Source of the DNA: an uncultured Lachnospiraceae bacterium
GTDB taxonomy: Bacteria > Bacillota > Clostridia > Lachnospirales > Lachnospiraceae
Assembly (NCBI GenBank): GCA_905236545.1
Contig: CAJOQO010000140.1
Coordinates: 1 to 10,965, forward strand
Length of the DNA: 10,965 nt
Direction: 5' to 3'
In this document: in pieces, positions 4,150 to 10,965 of the stretch
How the letters are laid out: each line of letters begins with the position of its first letter
Numbering within the stretch: the stretch's first letter is position 1
The notes under the pieces: generated by a model
The model's input: the letters and a program-made list of their open reading frames with translations, nothing else
Database searches by the model: none
What the model was told of the DNA's origin: nothing
Program-made: the position numbers and the translations under genes

Positions 4150-6297
4150 ATGGCAAACAAAGGACCTTATTACATTACAACCGCAATCGCATACGCTTCC
4201 GGCAAGCCGCATATCGGGAACACCTATGAGGCGGTTCTGGCGGACGCGATTGCCCGCTATAAAAGAGCGGAGGGATACGATGTCGTATTCCAGACCGGTA
4301 CGGATGAGCACGGTCAGAAGAACGAGATCAAGGCTGCCGAGGCCGGCATGACGCCGCAGGAGTTTGTTGACAAAAACTCCGCCACCATCCGTCAGATCTG
4401 GGACCGCATGAACACCAGCTATGACCGTTTCGTCCGCACGACCGATCCCTCGCATAAGAAGAAGATACAGAAGATCTTCAAAAAGCTCTACGATCAGGGT
4501 GACATCTACAAGGGTGCCTATGAGGGGTGGTACTGCACTCCCTGCGAGTCCTTCTGGACCGAAAGTCAGCTTGTGGACGGAAAATGCCCTGACTGCGGCC
4601 GGGATGTCTCTCTGGCGAAGGAAGAAGCGTATTTCTTTAAGATGAGCAAATACGCCGACCGCCTGATCGAGCATATCAACACGCATCCGGAGTTCATCCA
4701 GCCCGTTGCCCGCAAGAATGAGATGATGAACAATTTCCTTCTTCCCGGCCTGCAGGATCTTTGCGTCAGCAGAACCTCATTTTCCTGGGGAATCCCTGTG
4801 GACTTTGATCCGAAGCACGTGGTTTATGTGTGGCTTGACGCGCTGAGCAACTATATCACCTTCGCCGGCTATGACCCGGACGGTTCCACGGACGAATACC
4901 GCAGGTACTGGCCGGCTGACCTGCACCTGATCGGGAAGGATATCATCCGTTTCCATACGATCTACTGGCCGATCTTCCTGATGGCGCTCGGCGAGCCGCT
5001 TCCGAAGCAGGTTTTCGGCCACCCGTGGCTGCTGATGGGCGACGGCAAGATGAGTAAGTCCAAGGGCAATGTCCTGTACGCGGATGAGCTTTCCGATCTT
5101 TTCGGCGTGGACGCGGTACGCTGCTTTGTCCTGCATGAGATGCCTTTTGAAAATGACGGTGTGATCACCTGGGATCTGTGTGTGGAGCGGTTCAATTCCG
5201 ATCTGGCAAATACGCTTGGCAATCTGGTGAACCGGACGATCTCCATGACGAACAAATACTTCGGCGGTGTTGTCCGGAATACCGGCGTTACCGATGAACA
5301 GGTCGCGCCGTCCGGCGTCATCAGCGAGGGACAGACCGGCAGCATCGATGAGGATCTGAAGGATCTGGTTCTCCGGACTCCGAAGGCTGTCTCGCAGAAG
5401 ATGGCTGAGCTGCGGGTCGCGGACGCGATCACCGAGATCTTCAACCTCTTCAAGCGCTGCAACAAATATATCGATGAGACTGCTCCCTGGGTGCTCGCAA
5501 AGGGCGATGATCCCCTGAAGAAGGACCGCCTGAGCGAGGTTCTTTACAACCTGGTGGAATCCATCGCGGTCGGCGCCGAGCTTCTGGAATCCTTTATGCC
5601 GGATACCAGCCGGAAGATCCTGTGTCAGCTCAATGCCCATAAGCGCGGCCTTGACCATATGGATCAGTTCGGCCAGTATCCGTCCGGAAGCTCTGTGACG
5701 GATCAGCCGCAGATTCTGTTCCAGCGGATGAAGCCTGAGGATGTGGAGGCCGCTCTTGCGAAGCTGCACCCCGAAGCACAGACCGCTCCGGATGCGGCGG
5801 ATACGGATAAGGCTTCCGCTGCAAAAGCTTCGGATAAAGCTTCTGAAGCAAAAGACTCTGATAAAGCCTCCGCGGGTAAGGGAACCGATCCTGCTTCCGG
5901 CAGGCAGGATGCCGGCGAACCGGCTTCCGGTTCCGCTCCGGCGCCCGGCGTCATGGATGTCGAACCCATGCCTGAGATTTCCATCGATGACTTCGCAAAG
6001 CTTCAGATTCAGGTCGGCGAAGTCATTCAGTGTGAGGAAGTCAAAAAATCCCGGAAGCTGCTCTGCAGCCAGGTGAAGATCGGCAGCGGAACACGCCAGA
6101 TCCTTTCCGGCATCAAACAATGGTATACGCCGGAGGAAATGATTGGAAAGAAGGTTCTGGTTATCACGAACCTCAAGAGCGCAAAGCTCGCCGGAATGGT
6201 AAGCGAAGGCATGATCCTCTGCGCGGAAGACGCGCAGGGCCGCCTGAGTCTTGTAAACCCCGAGCGCGAAGTGGACTGCGGCGCGCAGATCCGTTAA
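4150..6297 (+). CDS. metG: methionyl-tRNA synthetase with C-terminal tRNA-binding domain
   Basis: A 715-residue class I enzyme that charges tRNA(Met) with methionine in the cytoplasm. The HIGH-type signature is HIGN at 21-24 after YASGKP, and KMSKS is at 300-304. A zinc knuckle has Cys at 129, 132, 146 and 149 (CTPC...CPDC). The anticodon-binding helical domain extends to about 535. The C-terminal OB-fold tRNA-binding (Trbp111-like) domain starts near 607 (ISIDDFAKLQIQVGEV) and runs to the end; this domain dimerises the enzyme and helps hold tRNA. Between them lies a low-complexity Ala/Lys/Asp/Ser linker (about 539-606) with three 9-residue repeats, longer than usual and explaining the extra length. 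The start has AAGGAAGG about 7 nt upstream. Only 62 nt separate it from the DUF308 gene, too short for a T-box leader. rsmA follows after 20 nt. Confidence 0.97.
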   Translation: MANKGPYYITTAIAYASGKPHIGNTYEAVLADAIARYKRAEGYDVVFQTGTDEHGQKNEIKAAEAGMTPQEFVDKNSATIRQIWDRMNTSYDRFVRTTDPSHKKKIQKIFKKLYDQGDIYKGAYEGWYCTPCESFWTESQLVDGKCPDCGRDVSLAKEEAYFFKMSKYADRLIEHINTHPEFIQPVARKNEMMNNFLLPGLQDLCVSRTSFSWGIPVDFDPKHVVYVWLDALSNYITFAGYDPDGSTDEYRRYWPADLHLIGKDIIRFHTIYWPIFLMALGEPLPKQVFGHPWLLMGDGKMSKSKGNVLYADELSDLFGVDAVRCFVLHEMPFENDGVITWDLCVERFNSDLANTLGNLVNRTISMTNKYFGGVVRNTGVTDEQVAPSGVISEGQTGSIDEDLKDLVLRTPKAVSQKMAELRVADAITEIFNLFKRCNKYIDETAPWVLAKGDDPLKKDRLSEVLYNLVESIAVGAELLESFMPDTSRKILCQLNAHKRGLDHMDQFGQYPSGSSVTDQPQILFQRMKPEDVEAALAKLHPEAQTAPDAADTDKASAAKASDKASEAKDSDKASAGKGTDPASGRQDAGEPASGSAPAPGVMDVEPMPEISIDDFAKLQIQVGEVIQCEEVKKSRKLLCSQVKIGSGTRQILSGIKQWYTPEEMIGKKVLVITNLKSAKLAGMVSEGMILCAEDAQGRLSLVNPEREVDCGAQIR
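5806..5886 (+). repeat. three 27-bp tandem repeats in the MetG linker
   Basis: Units start at 5806, 5833 and 5860 and encode the 9-residue pattern DKAS(A/E)(A/G)K followed by two variable residues (protein residues 553-579). The linker joins the anticodon-binding domain to the tRNA-binding domain. DNA identity between units is moderate, so this expansion looks older than the one in the DUF308 gene. Confidence 0.8.
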
Positions 6298-6317
6298 GCA
6301 CTGTCCGGAAAGAAAAT

Positions 6318-7184
6318 ATGCAGAGACTATCTGACCCGGGGATGACCCGCAAGGTCATTTCCCAATATGATTTCGACTTTCGCAAGCGGTTCGGCCAGAA
6401 CTTTCTTGTCGATGAAGGCGTTATCCTGAGAGCGCTGGAAGCTGCCCGGGTGAGCAAGGAAGATGTCATCATCGAGATCGGTCCCGGCATCGGAACCCTG
6501 ACACAGTATCTGGCCGAAGCCGCTTACCAGGTAACGGCGATCGAGATCGACAAAAAACTGATCCCGATTCTTTCGGAAACCCTGGCCGGCTGCGATAATG
6601 TAGAGGTGATCCATGCGGATGTGCTGAAGGTGGATCTTTCCGCCATTGCTCAAAAGTACGCTCCGGAGCATTCGCTCAAGATCGTGGCAAACCTTCCCTA
6701 CTACATCACAACGCCGATCCTGATGAATCTCTTCCGGCGCAACGTTCCGGCGCAGTCGATCACCGTCATGGTCCAGAAAGAAGTCGCAGACCGGATGACA
6801 GCACAGCCGGGCAGCAAAGACTACGGTTCCCTCTCCGTCGCGGTCCAGTACTACTCCAGGCCGCGAATCGTGGAGGAAGTTCCGCCGGACTCCTTCATCC
6901 CGCACCCGAAGGTCACCAGCTCCGTGGTTACCATGGAGCTGTATGAGGAACTCCCGGTCCGGGCTCAGAACGAGGAGCTGTTCAACACGGTTGTCCGGGC
7001 GGCGTTCGGGCAGCGGCGCAAGACCCTCGTCAATGCATTGTCCTCCAACGCGGAGATCCCCTTCGGAAAAGAACAGATCGCATCCTGTCTGGATCAGCTT
7101 GGCTTCCCCCCGGCCATACGCGGAGAGAAGCTTTCGATCGGGGACTTCGTTTCGCTCTCCGACTGCCTGTCGGCGTCAGGCTGA
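6318..7184 (+). CDS. rsmA: 16S rRNA dimethyladenosine transferase RsmA (KsgA)
   Basis: A 288-residue S-adenosylmethionine-dependent enzyme that dimethylates two adjacent adenines (A1518/A1519, E. coli numbering) near the 3' end of 16S rRNA during small-subunit assembly. Visible motifs: GQNFL (26-30), motif I EIGPGIGTLT (53-62), the acidic ribose-binding E76 in AIEID, HADVL near 99-103, and catalytic motif IV NLPY (125-128), then the FIPHPKVTS and FGQRRKTL segments of the C-terminal domain. Length is normal. The start at 6318 has GGAAAG about 6 nt upstream; a possible later start is the ATG at 6342. It follows metG by 20 nt, so the two are probably cotranscribed. rnmV, which often precedes rsmA, is missing here. 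Confidence 0.96.
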   Translation: MQRLSDPGMTRKVISQYDFDFRKRFGQNFLVDEGVILRALEAARVSKEDVIIEIGPGIGTLTQYLAEAAYQVTAIEIDKKLIPILSETLAGCDNVEVIHADVLKVDLSAIAQKYAPEHSLKIVANLPYYITTPILMNLFRRNVPAQSITVMVQKEVADRMTAQPGSKDYGSLSVAVQYYSRPRIVEEVPPDSFIPHPKVTSSVVTMELYEELPVRAQNEELFNTVVRAAFGQRRKTLVNALSSNAEIPFGKEQIASCLDQLGFPPAIRGEKLSIGDFVSLSDCLSASG

Positions 7185-7246
7185 CGAACCGATGCGCAAT
7201 GCAGAAAACATCTTTCACAGAGAAAAAAAAGGATGGCCGGAAAGGT

Positions 7247-7286
7247 GGTTCAAATTAGGGATTTCTGAAACAAGTTAATTTGAGCC
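7247..7286. repeat. 11-bp inverted repeat at the edge of the low-GC island
   Basis: GGTTCAAATTA (7247-7257) and TAATTTGAGCC (7276-7286) are inverted copies with a single difference, around an 18-nt centre. No U-tract follows on either strand, so it is not a clear terminator. It sits where base composition falls from the housekeeping to the island DNA, so an insertion boundary or end sequence is possible but unproven. Confidence 0.5.
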
Positions 7287-7306
7287 AGCATTCTTCGGGC
7301 GGGAAC

Positions 7307-7457
7307 AATAGAAAATGGCGTCACAAGAGTAGAAATACTCATGTGACGCCATTTCTTTGAAATATACGCCTAAGGCGCTAACATCTATAAAAAGAAATCG
7401 GGAACATCGACAACCGAAGTTGTATGTCCCCTTTAAGAACGAAGTTCTTTCAATAGT
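7307..7457 (-). ncRNA. candidate AbiF-associated small structured RNA
   Basis: About 150 nt with no open frame of note, bounded on the minus strand by a near-consensus promoter (start predicted near 7457) and a terminator hairpin (7313-7354). In transcript order it folds as follows. AAGAAC pairs with GTTCTT (7449-7435). GGGGACAU (7431-7424) pairs with AUGUUCCC (7407-7400), enclosing ACAAC-UUCG-GUUGU with a classic UUCG tetraloop and a 2-nt bulge. AUUUCUUU (7398-7391) can pair with AAAGAAAU (7358-7351) around the small hairpin CGCC-UUA-GGCG. The terminator stem comes last and shares bases with that long-range pairing. Conserved structured RNAs are known beside abiF genes and have been proposed as RNA antitoxins to the HEPN protein. 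Identity with that class is inferred from position and structure, not from an alignment. Confidence 0.6.
7313..7358. terminator. strong, probably bidirectional intrinsic terminator
   Basis: AAATGGCGTCACA (7313-7325) pairs perfectly with TGTGACGCCATTT (7342-7354). After an A/A mismatch, GAGTA pairs with TACTC around a GAAA loop. On the minus strand the stem is followed by a short U-rich run (TTTTCTATT), and on the plus strand by TTTCTTT. It lies between convergent rsmA (+) and the Abi_2 gene plus its candidate small RNA (-), and would end transcription from both sides. Confidence 0.75.
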
Positions 7458-7463
7458 AGTGAT

Positions 7464-7492
7464 ATTCTATCACCTGCCAGCTATGCTGTCAA
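7464..7492 (-). promoter_or_regulatory. near-consensus sigma-A promoter of the candidate small RNA
   Basis: On the minus strand a perfect TTGACA (7487-7492), an exact 17-nt spacer and TAGAAT (7464-7469, one mismatch). The -35 and spacer lie within the last codons of the Abi_2 gene and its stop codon, so the RNA can be made independently of the gene. The -10 lies inside a 6-bp inverted repeat (GTGATA 7459-7464 / TATCAC 7468-7473), and the -35 forms one half of a 20-bp palindrome. Confidence 0.7.
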
Positions 7493-8387
7493 GAACTTTC
7501 TTGACAAAGCTATAAGAACTGGTGATTATGTTATTGTTTCTAAACCAATCCTTGTTTTGAATCATGCGACCTTCAAAAAATTCTTCTAGTTCATCGTAAC
7601 GTTTCTGTTTGGCAACAGGGCTAGATACAATTTCATCATATGCGTAAAGAAGGCACACAAAATCATAAATGCATTTATTACTGAGCTTTTTGTCTCTTGA
7701 GTTTTCACTAATCGAGGCCACAGTTTTTACCCTATCGACCACACTTTGATGGGCTTTATTATTACCTGGTGCAAGATTATTAATAAGGCAATTACTATGG
7801 GCACAGGCATTTCGTATGTCTCGTACTGAATTGAGCAGAATCCGGTCACCGATTTCCACCCCATATGTTTCGTTATAGAACTCGCAAAGATATGCAAAAT
7901 CTCCGAAGGAAATCAGTTCAACGAAAACCCACGCAGGAAAATAAGGATAATATTTTTCAATTAAGTCCTTACAGTAGGCACTTGCTTTATGAGAGCGAAT
8001 TGTTTTTAATATTCCGAAGGAGTGGTCATTCGCTATAAATTTTTGAATGATTTTATACCCGTCTTCTTCAGAATTTTTCTCAATGTTGTTAAGAAGTTGA
8101 ACTTTCATGAAGTGTTCGATGTCAAGGGCCATTTGAAAAGCCAAGTATCGAATCCGCATGTCAAGTTTTGATAATTCTTGAAGACATGAGAAATCCAATC
8201 CTATATACTGGTCTGCTTTTGGCCCCGTTGGATATTTCTTGTAGTTTGCTCTATATGAAGCCAACTTCATATAATAGTTATTATTTTCCAGAAAGCTTTG
8301 AGCATCTTCTTTTGAAATACGATTAAAAGTAATGCCCTTATTCTCCATATGAGTAACTAGCCCTTCGGCTGTTAATAAATCCTTCAT
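7470..8387 (-). CDS. Abi_2 family (AbiF/AbiD-type) abortive infection protein with HEPN motif
   Basis: A 305-residue soluble protein. The N-terminal pattern (LLTAEGLVTHMENKGI, then FLENNNYYMKLASYR at 32-46) and the central LSKLDMRIRYL...DIEHFMK region (about 72-95) are typical of the Abi_2 family of lactococcal AbiD/AbiF phage-exclusion proteins. Residues 192-197 read RNACAH, the R-x4-H HEPN signature of metal-independent RNases. In such systems phage infection is thought to free the toxin, which stops growth by cleaving RNA. The start at 8387 has GAGGTG about 10 nt upstream. AT-rich composition contrasts with the rsmA side. It is a single-gene unit with its own strong promoter, followed directly by a candidate structured RNA that may be its antitoxin. 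AbiF is favoured over AbiD because of that RNA; the family call is firmer than the subtype. Confidence 0.88.
   Translation of the reverse strand: MKDLLTAEGLVTHMENKGITFNRISKEDAQSFLENNNYYMKLASYRANYKKYPTGPKADQYIGLDFSCLQELSKLDMRIRYLAFQMALDIEHFMKVQLLNNIEKNSEEDGYKIIQKFIANDHSFGILKTIRSHKASAYCKDLIEKYYPYFPAWVFVELISFGDFAYLCEFYNETYGVEIGDRILLNSVRDIRNACAHSNCLINNLAPGNNKAHQSVVDRVKTVASISENSRDKKLSNKCIYDFVCLLYAYDEIVSSPVAKQKRYDELEEFFEGRMIQNKDWFRNNNIITSSYSFVKKVLDSIAGR
7487..7506. promoter_or_regulatory. 20-bp palindrome over the small-RNA -35 box
   Basis: TGTCAAGAA (7487-7495) and TTCTTGACA (7498-7506) are perfect 9-bp inverted arms around CT, inside the 3' end of the Abi_2 coding sequence. One arm supplies the TTGACA of the small-RNA promoter, and the other forms TTGACA on the opposite strand. 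It could be an operator for a dimeric regulator, or a coding coincidence. Confidence 0.4.
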
Positions 8388-8420
8388 TAAACTGGTTCAC
8401 CTCGAATACTATTTGAAAGC

Positions 8421-8449
8421 ATTATACTACAGATATGCTGTTTAGTAAA
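8421..8449 (-). promoter_or_regulatory. sigma-A promoter of the Abi_2 gene
   Basis: On the minus strand a perfect TATAAT (8421-8426), a 17-nt spacer and TTTACT (8444-8449, four of six matches). Transcription would start near 8414, leaving about 27 nt before the start codon, enough for the GAGGTG ribosome binding site. Confidence 0.7.
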
Positions 8450-8579
8450 TGAAAGCGTACTGAGCATAATTAAAAGTAAATTGATGTAATGAAGCTACTA
8501 AGCACACTCCCGATGCCGGGGGCAAGCGCCTATCTCTTTGACATAAAGGTCAGAAGACCGTCGGCCTCTCCCGCGTGCG

Positions 8580-8605
8580 AAAAGGCAAATTCAAAAGGCT
8601 AATTA
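8580..8605. repeat. 13-bp tandem direct repeat
   Basis: AAAAGGCAAATTC (8580-8592) is followed at once by AAAAGGCTAATTA (8593-8605), 11 of 13 bases identical. Short direct repeats beside inverted repeats occur in transfer origins and replication iterons, but two copies alone prove nothing. Confidence 0.45.
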
Positions 8606-8681
8606 ATCCATCCGGGCACGAAACCCCATAGGAAACTGCGAATGTCACACTATTTCTGCTCGATTTTGAATAGGCGCGAAC

Positions 8682-8735
8682 AGACAAAACAGCCGAGAAT
8701 ACACAGAAAACCATGCAGTTTTACGCTCCCGGCTG
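8682..8735 (-). terminator. probable terminator of the hsdS-abiC operon
   Basis: On the minus strand CAGCCGGGAG (8735-8726) pairs with TTCTCGGCTG (8699-8690) through eight Watson-Crick and two G-U pairs, with an inner AAAAC/GTTTT pairing. A U-rich run (TTTTGTCTGTT) follows. On the plus strand the same arms would carry A-C mismatches, so the fold favours the minus transcript. The loop is large for a classic terminator, hence moderate confidence. It lies about 105 nt beyond the stop codon of the Abi_C gene. Confidence 0.5.
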
Positions 8736-8779
8736 CTCCTTGTATCCCCTATGCAATTTCGCGGAAATTCATGCGAGAG

Positions 8780-8828
8780 GGGGCGGCGGTCTCCAGCAAT
8801 AATGGTCACAGAGATTTGACCCCGCCCC
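8780..8828. repeat. GC-rich inverted repeat just after the Abi_C gene
   Basis: GGGGCGG (8780-8786) pairs with CCGCCCC (8822-8828), and after a one-base bulge GGTC (8788-8791) pairs with GACC (8818-8821), enclosing a loop of about 26 nt. No U-tract follows. It could be an RNA stem stabilising the 3' end of the operon transcript, or part of the mobile remnant. Confidence 0.5.
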
Positions 8829-8839
8829 GGTATTACTTA

Positions 8840-9763
8840 TCAAGGTGCGGTGTTAGCTTTGTTTTCTACAGACAAAATGAAGTCTGCCATTGCCATTGCA
8901 GCATTGACAAATAGACGCGCGTGGTGCTCATCAATAGCAATTCTTGATGCTCCCACGCCGTGAGCATCACTGTTTTTGTTCCTCATTTCTGAGATTGAAG
9001 ATACTATCTTCTCCAAGCCTGATAGTAAAGTGTTGATACGCTTATCTGTATTAGCGTCGCCATGCATGTTGTACAGGTTCTTAACTTGCTTATATAAATC
9101 ACCCATATTGCCAGAAGTTGATGGAGTATCGCCTTTTTTCTCTATCACATAGCAGAATACCTCTTCGAGCAGTGTGCGTGACTTATTGATTGCGCTGTCA
9201 TAGTTTTTCTGGTCAACATCAGCCATTGCCCGTGTAGAAATACTTCTAATATATTCACGGTCAATGTTTTTAATTTTAGGTGCCTGGACTTCGACTTTGG
9301 CTCCGATTTTTCTAACGATAAAACGGTCGCCTATAGTTACGAGTTCATTACCGCCAAAATACAATGTACCGTTTATTTTTCCAATGATTGTTTGGACAAA
9401 ATGCGTATATGCAGCATCAATAGCACTCGCCTCATGTCCGGCGAACATGGTGGAAAACTGTTGTTTGCCAAAGAGATATGCTAACAGTTCCGAAGCGCGA
9501 TCTGCTTTTATACAGTATTCAAACAGGTTTTCAAGATACTGCCACCGGCTGAGGTTTACACCTCCCCATGTGTACGTCATTGGCAGCCCGAATAATGTGG
9601 ATAGTCCACACAGGTCGGGGCCGCTCAAATACGGCATGGCGATTTTTGCCGTGGAGCAGTCATCGATGAATTCGTAATCTTCAAATTTAGTGTCACCGTC
9701 CAGTATTGAATAAACACTTTTGTTCATCAATAACCGAAACGGACTCTGCACTTTCTGGTTCAT
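8840..9763 (-). CDS. abortive infection protein with Abi_C HEPN-type C-terminal domain
   Basis: A 307-residue protein. Residues from about 175 match the abortive-infection C-terminal (Abi_C) pattern: YDSAINKSRTLLEEVFCYVI, then a conserved LYKQVKNLYNM, a GLEKIVSSISEMRN helix and DAHG. R261 and H268 (RNKNSDAH) fit the R-x4-6-H HEPN signature of RNase toxins. The N-terminal half (about 1-170) is not recognised and may sense the trigger. The start at 9763 has a full AAAGGAGG 8 nt upstream, located in the 17-nt gap after the hsdS stop codon, so the two are surely cotranscribed and probably translationally coupled. Abi_C genes are often found inside type I restriction operons. The likely role is growth arrest when restriction fails or is inhibited. 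That role is inferred. Confidence 0.8.
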   Translation of the reverse strand: MNQKVQSPFRLLMNKSVYSILDGDTKFEDYEFIDDCSTAKIAMPYLSGPDLCGLSTLFGLPMTYTWGGVNLSRWQYLENLFEYCIKADRASELLAYLFGKQQFSTMFAGHEASAIDAAYTHFVQTIIGKINGTLYFGGNELVTIGDRFIVRKIGAKVEVQAPKIKNIDREYIRSISTRAMADVDQKNYDSAINKSRTLLEEVFCYVIEKKGDTPSTSGNMGDLYKQVKNLYNMHGDANTDKRINTLLSGLEKIVSSISEMRNKNSDAHGVGASRIAIDEHHARLFVNAAMAMADFILSVENKANTAP

Positions 9764-9780
9764 AGATTACGCCTCCTTTA

Positions 9781-10965
9781 TCATTTCTCAAACAAAGGCA
9801 TTAGTTCATCTATCTTTTGAGCAATACGTTTTTGCTCCGCAAGAGGTGGAAGCGGCAGTAAGTATCGTATCATTCTTACCATAGTCAATGTATCGACAGT
9901 TGTACCCCCTGAATTACTCTCAATCTGCTTACGCATCATATCTGATTTCATGACAAATACTAAATAATATGGATTTATGCCTCCAAAGTTTTCAAAGCAG
10001 AGGACAGATGCGTCTTTGTAGTAAAATCGATCATTAGCATTAACAACATAAGTTTTTCCGAGGGTTCCCACGGCGGTTACCATTAGATCATTCTCTTGAG
10101 GAACACCGGTTTTAGAAAACTCAGAAAACAGCTCTTCTGATATGAAAAGATCGTTTTGCACAAAACCTTCTTCTGCTAATTTTGCTATCTCTCTTGCTCT
10201 GTAGAAAGGCACACCTGATTCACGCCAATCAGCCTTATGAACACGTCTTGCAGAAACGATATTTACGACGTCTCCCCATCGAATCCACTTCCAGTTCTTT
10301 GGAATATCGAACAGGATTTCATCTGCTGTAATCTCCGGGAGTGGCTTTTCTTTCTTAATCTTTCCTGCCTTAATGAGCGCCTGTTTCTCCGTCTGTATCT
10401 TCTCATACAGTTCCTCCGCCGTTCCATCCTCCGGCAACTGCTCCGTCAGCTTGCCCTGAATGGCCGCATCGATCAGCTTGGCTTTGAGCGTGGTCAGGTT
10501 ATCGGCATACTGCGCCTGCAGTGTGTCGATAGCGTCGAGAACGGAAAAAGCCTGATCGATCTTCTCAACGATGCGTTGCTGCTCAGCGAGAGGTGGTAAA
10601 GGAACAAGCATAGGATATATGTCTTTGTTATTGATTTGAGGAATAGCTGTTCCAGTGTATAAGTCTCCTAAGTTAATAGAATCGAACCAGCACTTCAAAA
10701 ATAGCAATATCTCTGGAAGTATCATTGTCATTGCCATCGTATTTGAATCGATAAAGATGGGCGTTTTCAAGACTATCCTTTTTTTGTTGGTGAGGATCGC
10801 TCCGCCTCTTTTAGGAAAAATAATGCTCGAAACAGGAATCATTCCATTATTATCGATAGAAGCAAAACGTGAAGAAGTTGTTATCTCCTTTTTGTTCTCA
10901 GGCAGATTCATATCTGCAACTTTAATATATGGAATTCCTTCTTCAGCATCTTCATATTGATTACC
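9781..10965 (-). CDS. hsdS: type I restriction-modification specificity subunit HsdS (5' part beyond window)
   Basis: 394 codons are visible and the frame continues past the right edge, so the N-terminus is missing. HsdS is the DNA-recognition subunit that joins HsdM (methylation) and HsdR (cleavage). The end of target recognition domain 1 (IPYIKVADM near the edge, then PQINNKDIYPMLVPLPPLAEQQRIVEKID) is followed by the central conserved coiled-coil spacer (LKAKLIDAAIQGKLTEQL and EELYEKIQTEK). TRD2 begins at IPKNWKWIRWGDVV and ends with a second LPPLAEQKRIAQKIDELMPLFEK at the stop. Two TRDs imply a bipartite asymmetric DNA target. The central spacer DNA (about 10320-10620) is more GC-rich than the AT-rich TRDs, the usual mosaic of TRD exchange. 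hsdM and hsdR are expected to the right. The Abi_C gene follows after 17 nt. Confidence 0.93.
   Translation of the reverse strand, partial: GNQYEDAEEGIPYIKVADMNLPENKKEITTSSRFASIDNNGMIPVSSIIFPKRGGAILTNKKRIVLKTPIFIDSNTMAMTMILPEILLFLKCWFDSINLGDLYTGTAIPQINNKDIYPMLVPLPPLAEQQRIVEKIDQAFSVLDAIDTLQAQYADNLTTLKAKLIDAAIQGKLTEQLPEDGTAEELYEKIQTEKQALIKAGKIKKEKPLPEITADEILFDIPKNWKWIRWGDVVNIVSARRVHKADWRESGVPFYRAREIAKLAEEGFVQNDLFISEELFSEFSKTGVPQENDLMVTAVGTLGKTYVVNANDRFYYKDASVLCFENFGGINPYYLVFVMKSDMMRKQIESNSGGTTVDTLTMVRMIRYLLPLPPLAEQKRIAQKIDELMPLFEK

Follow-up and report, generated by a model that had tools for sequence, protein, structure and literature searches.

What does the short non-coding stretch behind an Abi_2 gene encode, and how is it tied to the protein made from that gene? 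The question is raised by a contig of an uncultured Lachnospiraceae bacterium (CAJOQO010000140.1; here the window, meaning the whole analysed stretch of 10,965 nucleotides, nt), whose minus strand carries an Abi_2 (AbiD/AbiF-type) gene for a proposed RNase toxin (7470..8387; 305 aa). In silico analysis of the window and of homologous loci indicates with high confidence that this gene is followed by a conserved RNA partner of its product, an AbiD-like Abi_2 HEPN protein. The module, the position of the RNA promoter, the covarying RNA, the protein family, the HEPN motif and the predicted fold have been established by sequence and computation.

Promoter and structure of the RNA gene

The promoter of the RNA is predicted at 7464..7492 on the minus strand and consists of a TTGACA box (7492-7487), a 17-nt spacer and a TAGAAT box (7469-7464), with 11 of 12 consensus bases. 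Its -10 box is of the extended type, and the TG extension forms part of the TGA stop codon of the Abi_2 gene. The initial annotation had placed this TTGACA-17-TAGAAT promoter at the gene end; the sequence bears it out, and the promoter recurs at the same place in homologues. This recurrence is the evidence for it, since the number of promoters in the region is at chance level (6 against 4.0 ± 2.2 in shuffles).

The conserved non-coding RNA has a length of about 69 nt (7389..7457, minus strand, predicted ends) and is composed of hairpin 1, AAGAAC-UUC-GUUCUU (7435..7449), an AAA linker (7432..7434), hairpin 2 (7400..7431) and a U-rich tract (7389..7397), the probable intrinsic terminator. Both hairpins and the linker come from the predicted fold, and each hairpin has a covarying counterpart in homologues; the U-tract is read from the sequence and stands directly behind hairpin 2 in most homologues inspected. 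The C(UUCG)G tetraloops announced earlier are present in hairpin 2 only, hairpin 1 being predicted to close as C(UUC)G. Scanned for terminators, 7000-8800 gave none on the minus strand.

The downstream DNA had also been described as made almost wholly of hairpins. It is indeed strongly folded over 7300-7470 (-59.4 kcal/mol, z -6.83, none of 200 shuffles equally stable), but much of this stability is supplied by a palindrome at 7313..7354 (fold and self-complementary match, on neither strand in particular), probably a two-way terminator between the Abi_2 gene and the ksgA-like gene. The conserved RNA includes neither the palindrome nor a further small hairpin near 7366-7378; folded alone, it reaches -19.7 kcal/mol (z -2.49, 4 of 200 shuffles equally stable). 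The first proposal, one RNA of about 150 nt ending in a strong terminator, was rejected: L020, a locus whose protein is 93% identical, has the promoter and the two hairpins and lacks 7300-7383, palindrome included. Only 7384-8453 is common to L020 and the window, a block that starts just ahead of the predicted Abi_2 promoter and stops just past the hairpin-2 U-tract; the unit therefore comprises gene promoter, gene, RNA promoter, two hairpins and U-tract. The likely gene promoter, TTTACT-17-TATAAT, is predicted at 8421..8449 (minus strand), just downstream of the block border at 8453, and the sequence GAGGTG at 8398..8403 on the same strand, 10 nt ahead of the ATG, is the likely ribosome-binding site.

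Conservation behind Abi_2 homologues

The 98 related genomes searched for homologues included 11 with a match at E ≤ 1e-3; the 392 genomes of the order gave 21 at E ≤ 1e-15 and the 398 of the phylum 16 at E ≤ 1e-30. Further homologues came from GTDB contigs (6 loci), plasmids (21 records) and phages (15 records), and the sets overlap. Close relatives of the protein (93-100% identical) belong to Lachnospiraceae metagenome-assembled genomes. Homologues of about 30-53% identity, whether from Bacillota, phages or plasmids, are followed by the two-hairpin layout. Among the strong homologues (at least 200 bits with profile A1), over half possess a promoter, a lead, a small hairpin rich in A, a linker of some 1-5 nt and a larger hairpin, and in most of these a U-tract closes the layout. 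By eye, it is also seen on plasmids, behind a gene of Lactococcus lactis (L088) and one of Campylobacter fetus (L089), the latter with a weak covariance-model match at the expected place (E 0.2) and the former not reported by the model. No two-hairpin layout was seen by eye at weak A1 matches (about 60-70 bits, L053-L058), the viral_contigs scan gave no relative, and plasmids searched for distant DNA similarity to 7384-7500 gave no match.

A strict mechanical rule, whose thresholds were set once, after the pattern had been seen, accepts 28 of 49 homologue ends against 2 of 463 other open reading frame (ORF) ends of the same loci; these counts give no formal probability, as the homologues are interdependent and were cleared of exact repeats only.

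This conservation bears on the simplest alternative, in which the hairpins do no more than terminate the Abi_2 mRNA, and the promoter arises by chance from codons (C-terminal residues such as V-D-N or L-D-S spelled TTGACA). Hairpin 2 with its U-tract does resemble a terminator, the -35 box overlaps the last codons in many homologues, and promoter matches are no commoner here than in shuffled sequence. We nevertheless consider it unlikely, because at L005, L008, L047-L050, L065-L067 and L069 all or part of the promoter is past the stop codon, with the -10 box ending at +25 to +82, and still stands just ahead of the RNA; moreover, an A-rich covarying hairpin recurs ahead of the terminator-like one, and control ORF ends almost never satisfy the strict rule.

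At two loci the RNA is present on either side of the Abi_2 gene, with both copies oriented alike. In L062 (1417-1479 and 2500-2562, minus strand) a 46-nt core is identical in both copies, and in L007 (about 1379 and 2427) the upstream copy consists of promoter and hairpin 1 only. The homologue in L021 (3001-3921) has an in-frame TGA at codon 64, yet a well-folding RNA behind it.

Covariance models and covariation

Two covariance models were built, R1 from four loci and R2 from 15. Over 64 sources (252 kb) R1 gave 22 matches at E up to 10, with 14 at the expected place, including all 13 with E up to 1.1; the 14 reduce to 12, as L040 is the place of training locus L006 and L052 is nearly identical to L042. 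Over 67 sources R2 gave 38 matches. The 32 at E up to 0.21 comprise 31 downstream matches and the upstream copy in L062 or, by origin, 14 training loci, the repeats L040 and L052, and 16 new matches in 15 loci. At L036 R2 matched at about the expected place (E 1.2) and at L068 elsewhere, while at E up to 5 it reported no match in L007, L019, L020, L022, L023, L032-L035, L037, L041, L050, L071 and L072.

A blind model search of 391 genomes of the class returned 15 hits, three of them directly behind an Abi_2 ORF (67, 52 and 44 bits) and among the five best by E-value; one of these three, L073, is the place of L052, near copy of a training locus. At 35-45 bits the model alone is a poor finder, and the other hits mostly resemble an A-run ahead of a terminator. 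One locus of the search, L086, has a toxin-antitoxin pair that by eye looks AbrB-like and RelE-like, and behind it a weak model match (34.9 bits); an apparent Abi_2 gene end of the FPPNW type, again by eye, lies about 1.2 kb upstream of that match.

The stems downstream of homologues covary, a point that the initial annotation had proposed to check. In the R2 training alignment (A10), which was fitted to structure and hence leans towards it, 96.0% of paired cells can pair, compared with 77.2% after shuffling and 46-51% when the structure is slid; both partners vary in 16 of 20 pairs, 15 of these in hairpin 2, and three of the five pairs of hairpin 1 are invariant. Hairpin 1 was also examined by an alignment-free check, with only its A-run and U-run as anchors: the next inward pair matches in 26 of 26 loci and the second in 23 (shuffled: 13.2 and 12.5), the loci being those left of 34 picked for visible hairpins after eight without anchor, the window among them, had been dropped. 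Folded singly, ten members have z values from -2.49 (window) to -6.04 (L021), and the minimum-energy folds of L020 and L003 lack hairpin 1 in its standard form. The automatic hairpin finder picked other hairpins in L006, L007, L042, L052, L063 and L065 and none in L003, L020 and L050, where cores were then set by eye if used. Pairs were not counted on MAFFT alignments, because some of their rows have the hairpin arms misaligned.

The RNA follows the phylogeny of the protein. Before a tree was made, 37 proteins were labelled by eye from the RNA lead (33 in nine types, three 'other' and one 'none', with L033 labelled despite an unclear RNA). On the protein tree these labels need 10 changes, the least possible being 9, compared with a mean of 26.3 for shuffled labels (none of 200 as low); types T3 and T7 need two changes each, and support for the T4 group is weak (76/64). 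One supported clade (100/98) unites the window, L020, L003, L004, L039 and L059, and its RNAs share the lead AUUGAAA and, beyond hairpin 2, GAUUU. This pattern shows gene and RNA to be inherited together, although the tree alone does not imply contact between them.

The Abi_2 protein

The protein belongs to the Abi_2 family (PF07751; 89 bits against a curated cut-off of 25.6) and contains the HEPN motif R-phi-x-x-x-H as RNACAH (192-197; R192-N193-A-C-A-H197), of which R, N and H are invariant across the alignment of 37 proteins. Foldseek gives a single significant match in the PDB, PbAbiF with its bound non-coding RNA (8VZ6); the predicted fold belongs to the PbAbiF fold, at 18% identity over aligned residues, and Cas13d appears among the weak matches. 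A search of PDB sequences with the window protein alone gave no relative, and a profile search did give one. The Abi_2 protein is a HEPN-motif relative of PbAbiF.

Proposed function and alternatives

The best reading of the locus, by analogy, is a HEPN RNase that would be kept inactive by a downstream RNA antitoxin, a variant of the AbiF systems. By likeness to two studied relatives, the two-hairpin RNA is probably an antitoxin acting through direct binding. The Abi_2 gene and the downstream RNA would form one module, in which the gene's own promoter drives the HEPN ribonuclease and the second promoter, at the gene end, gives a separate short two-hairpin RNA ending at its own terminator. The RNA would bind the protein, probably as a dimer like PbAbiF, and block non-specific RNase activity; phage infection may then disturb RNA synthesis or remove the antitoxin RNA, so that the freed RNase stops growth. 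Transcription of the RNA, toxicity, binding, neutralisation and phage-triggered release are all steps that we infer. The initial annotation had already proposed an RNA antitoxin, and this core agrees with a promoter-bearing structured RNA that recurs beside this Abi_2 clade, HEPN-motif relatives of PbAbiF; the proposed length and 3' end had to be given up, and the RNA is not RF03085.

Several observations weigh against this reading. The strict rule fails at 21 of 49 homologues, and no such RNA is visible by eye at L022, L023, L035 and L071. The RNA of the window itself is absent from the larger R2 search at E up to 5; unfiltered, it fits the model weakly (7390-7458, 15 bits, E 0.031 in 1,501 bases), with the unrelated palindrome (7308-7362) close behind at 13.7 bits, and it is therefore at best a divergent family member, apparently joined to the R2 family mainly by position and by protein clade T1 with its shared lead. 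Among the 15 blind hits, 12 are without an A1-type homologue in the fetched stretch. Finally, the RNA is not RF03085, so that its proposed function is an analogy drawn from known AbiF RNAs.

The RNA might instead be a regulatory small RNA that pairs with an mRNA, of abi_2 or of a phage. It is short, has its own promoter and terminator and lies beside a gene needing control, and control at the RNA level is reported for AbiD1 (PMC2661086). Such pairing is nonetheless improbable, given that the RNA is mostly base-paired, its subtype tracks the protein clade, and the nearest solved relative (8VZ6) binds its own non-coding RNA directly; nor is it antisense to abi_2, because it and the gene share one strand. 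That the RNA is a cofactor activating or guiding the nuclease, as a non-CRISPR guide or sensor, is the least probable alternative: the grouping of AbiD/F proteins with the HEPN domains of Cas13 (PMC12165695) and the weak fold matches to Cas13d speak for it, but the RNA has no long variable guide-like stretch, its lead and linker are short and similar within clades, and known AbiF RNAs inhibit (PMC12373285, PMC12737573).

Gene neighbourhood

On the minus strand, in the sense of transcription, a type I restriction specificity gene (10965-9781) adjoins an AbiJ-like gene (9763-8840), followed by the Abi_2 gene and the non-coding DNA. Convergent to them on the plus strand lies the gene at 6120-7184, which we take to be ksgA-like from its own sequence. 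The three defence-related genes side by side form a defence island; AbiJ is a further proposed HEPN family (PMC3710099). The main block common to the window and L018 spans 7241-9855, and that common to the window and L019 spans 7241-8831. Both have a sharp border at 7241, where the ksgA-like gene has ended 57 nt before, and the divergence of the sequences beyond it suggests a mobile defence cassette.

Comparison with known systems

The Rfam abiF model (RF03085), to which the initial annotation had pointed, matches neither the window (E ≤ 1; 7290-7510 at E ≤ 10) nor L003-L007, L009, L013 and L020 (E ≤ 2), so that the locus is not an AbiF-type system with RF03085 beside the gene. The other Rfam matches in the region (WsnRNA46 at 27 bits and several microRNAs) are far under their gathering scores, and the best of them fall on the long palindrome. 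RF03085, reportedly from Weinberg 2017, is likewise a small structured RNA beside Abi_2-type genes, but it is a 37-position hairpin with the consensus core CAAGCCUCUCAACGAUGC, from which the window RNA differs. In L024 it lies 45 nt downstream of an Abi_2 ORF (A1 profile 41 bits, C-terminus FPTDW). L025, L026 and L029 have RF03085 matches and no A1-profile match among ORFs of at least 120 aa in the fetched 3 kb, and may hold orphan RNAs. Another conserved element, GTAAGACTGATT...GAAT, lies downstream of Abi_2 in Streptococcus phages and a satellite (L034, L037, L090); its arms seem by eye to change together, and it is possibly a third RNA type.

A wider proposal, to which we give slightly less than an even chance, is that the Abi_2/HEPN family, proposed source of Cas13, has repeatedly swapped its RNA partner, between RF03085, the two-hairpin RNA of the AbiD-like branch and a third type in Streptococcus phages, each staying with its own protein clade, and that the two-hairpin RNA is an undescribed antitoxin class with its own promoter. 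If so, the RNA antitoxins of HEPN toxins would be more varied than the lone abiF family of Rfam, and the AbiD-like branch would gain a defined RNA partner open to direct testing. AbiF toxins are said to be the origin of Cas13, and the proposal would make it easier to study how an RNA that inhibits a HEPN nuclease could turn into a guide, as has been suggested for the path from AbiF to Cas13. In a survey mostly outside subscription papers, no title or abstract beginning describes a two-hairpin RNA behind AbiD-like genes; the covariance models AbiF5_iter3 and diverse_rna_xinsi of Zilberzwige-Tal et al. may already cover it (PMC12804078).

In the Prevotellaceae AbiF/AbiFr system (PbAbiF, 8VZ6; Zilberzwige-Tal et al., Cell 2025) the non-coding RNA is reported as the antitoxin (PMC12373285, PMC12737573), and each monomer binds one AbiFr, which blocks RNase activity (PMC12737573); the window RNA instead consists of two simple hairpins. 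The AbiF of C. difficile, a toxin both in its own host and in E. coli, is neutralised by RCd22 through binding (PMC12373285). Like the window, AbiFCd/RCd22 joins an Abi_2/AbiD/F toxin to a structured RNA and an intrinsic terminator, but RCd22 lies upstream, contains two RF03085 motifs and shares one promoter with the gene through the terminator, whereas in the window the RNA is downstream and gene and RNA each have their own predicted promoter. AbiD1 of L. lactis resembles the window in combining an AbiD-type protein with control at the RNA level, and differs in that its 50-base terminated transcript is upstream of abiD1 (PMC2661086).

The type III systems ToxIN, TenpIN and CptIN combine a protein RNase with an RNA antitoxin, an arrangement that for the window is a proposal, and their RNAs are repeats upstream of the toxin (PMC12373285). 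In contrast to these tandem repeats under a shared promoter, the window has one copy of a two-hairpin unit, downstream, with its own predicted promoter, no comparable model match upstream of the gene within 7200-8700, and a protein of HEPN fold. Common to both is a structured RNA gene conserved beside the known or proposed toxin gene.
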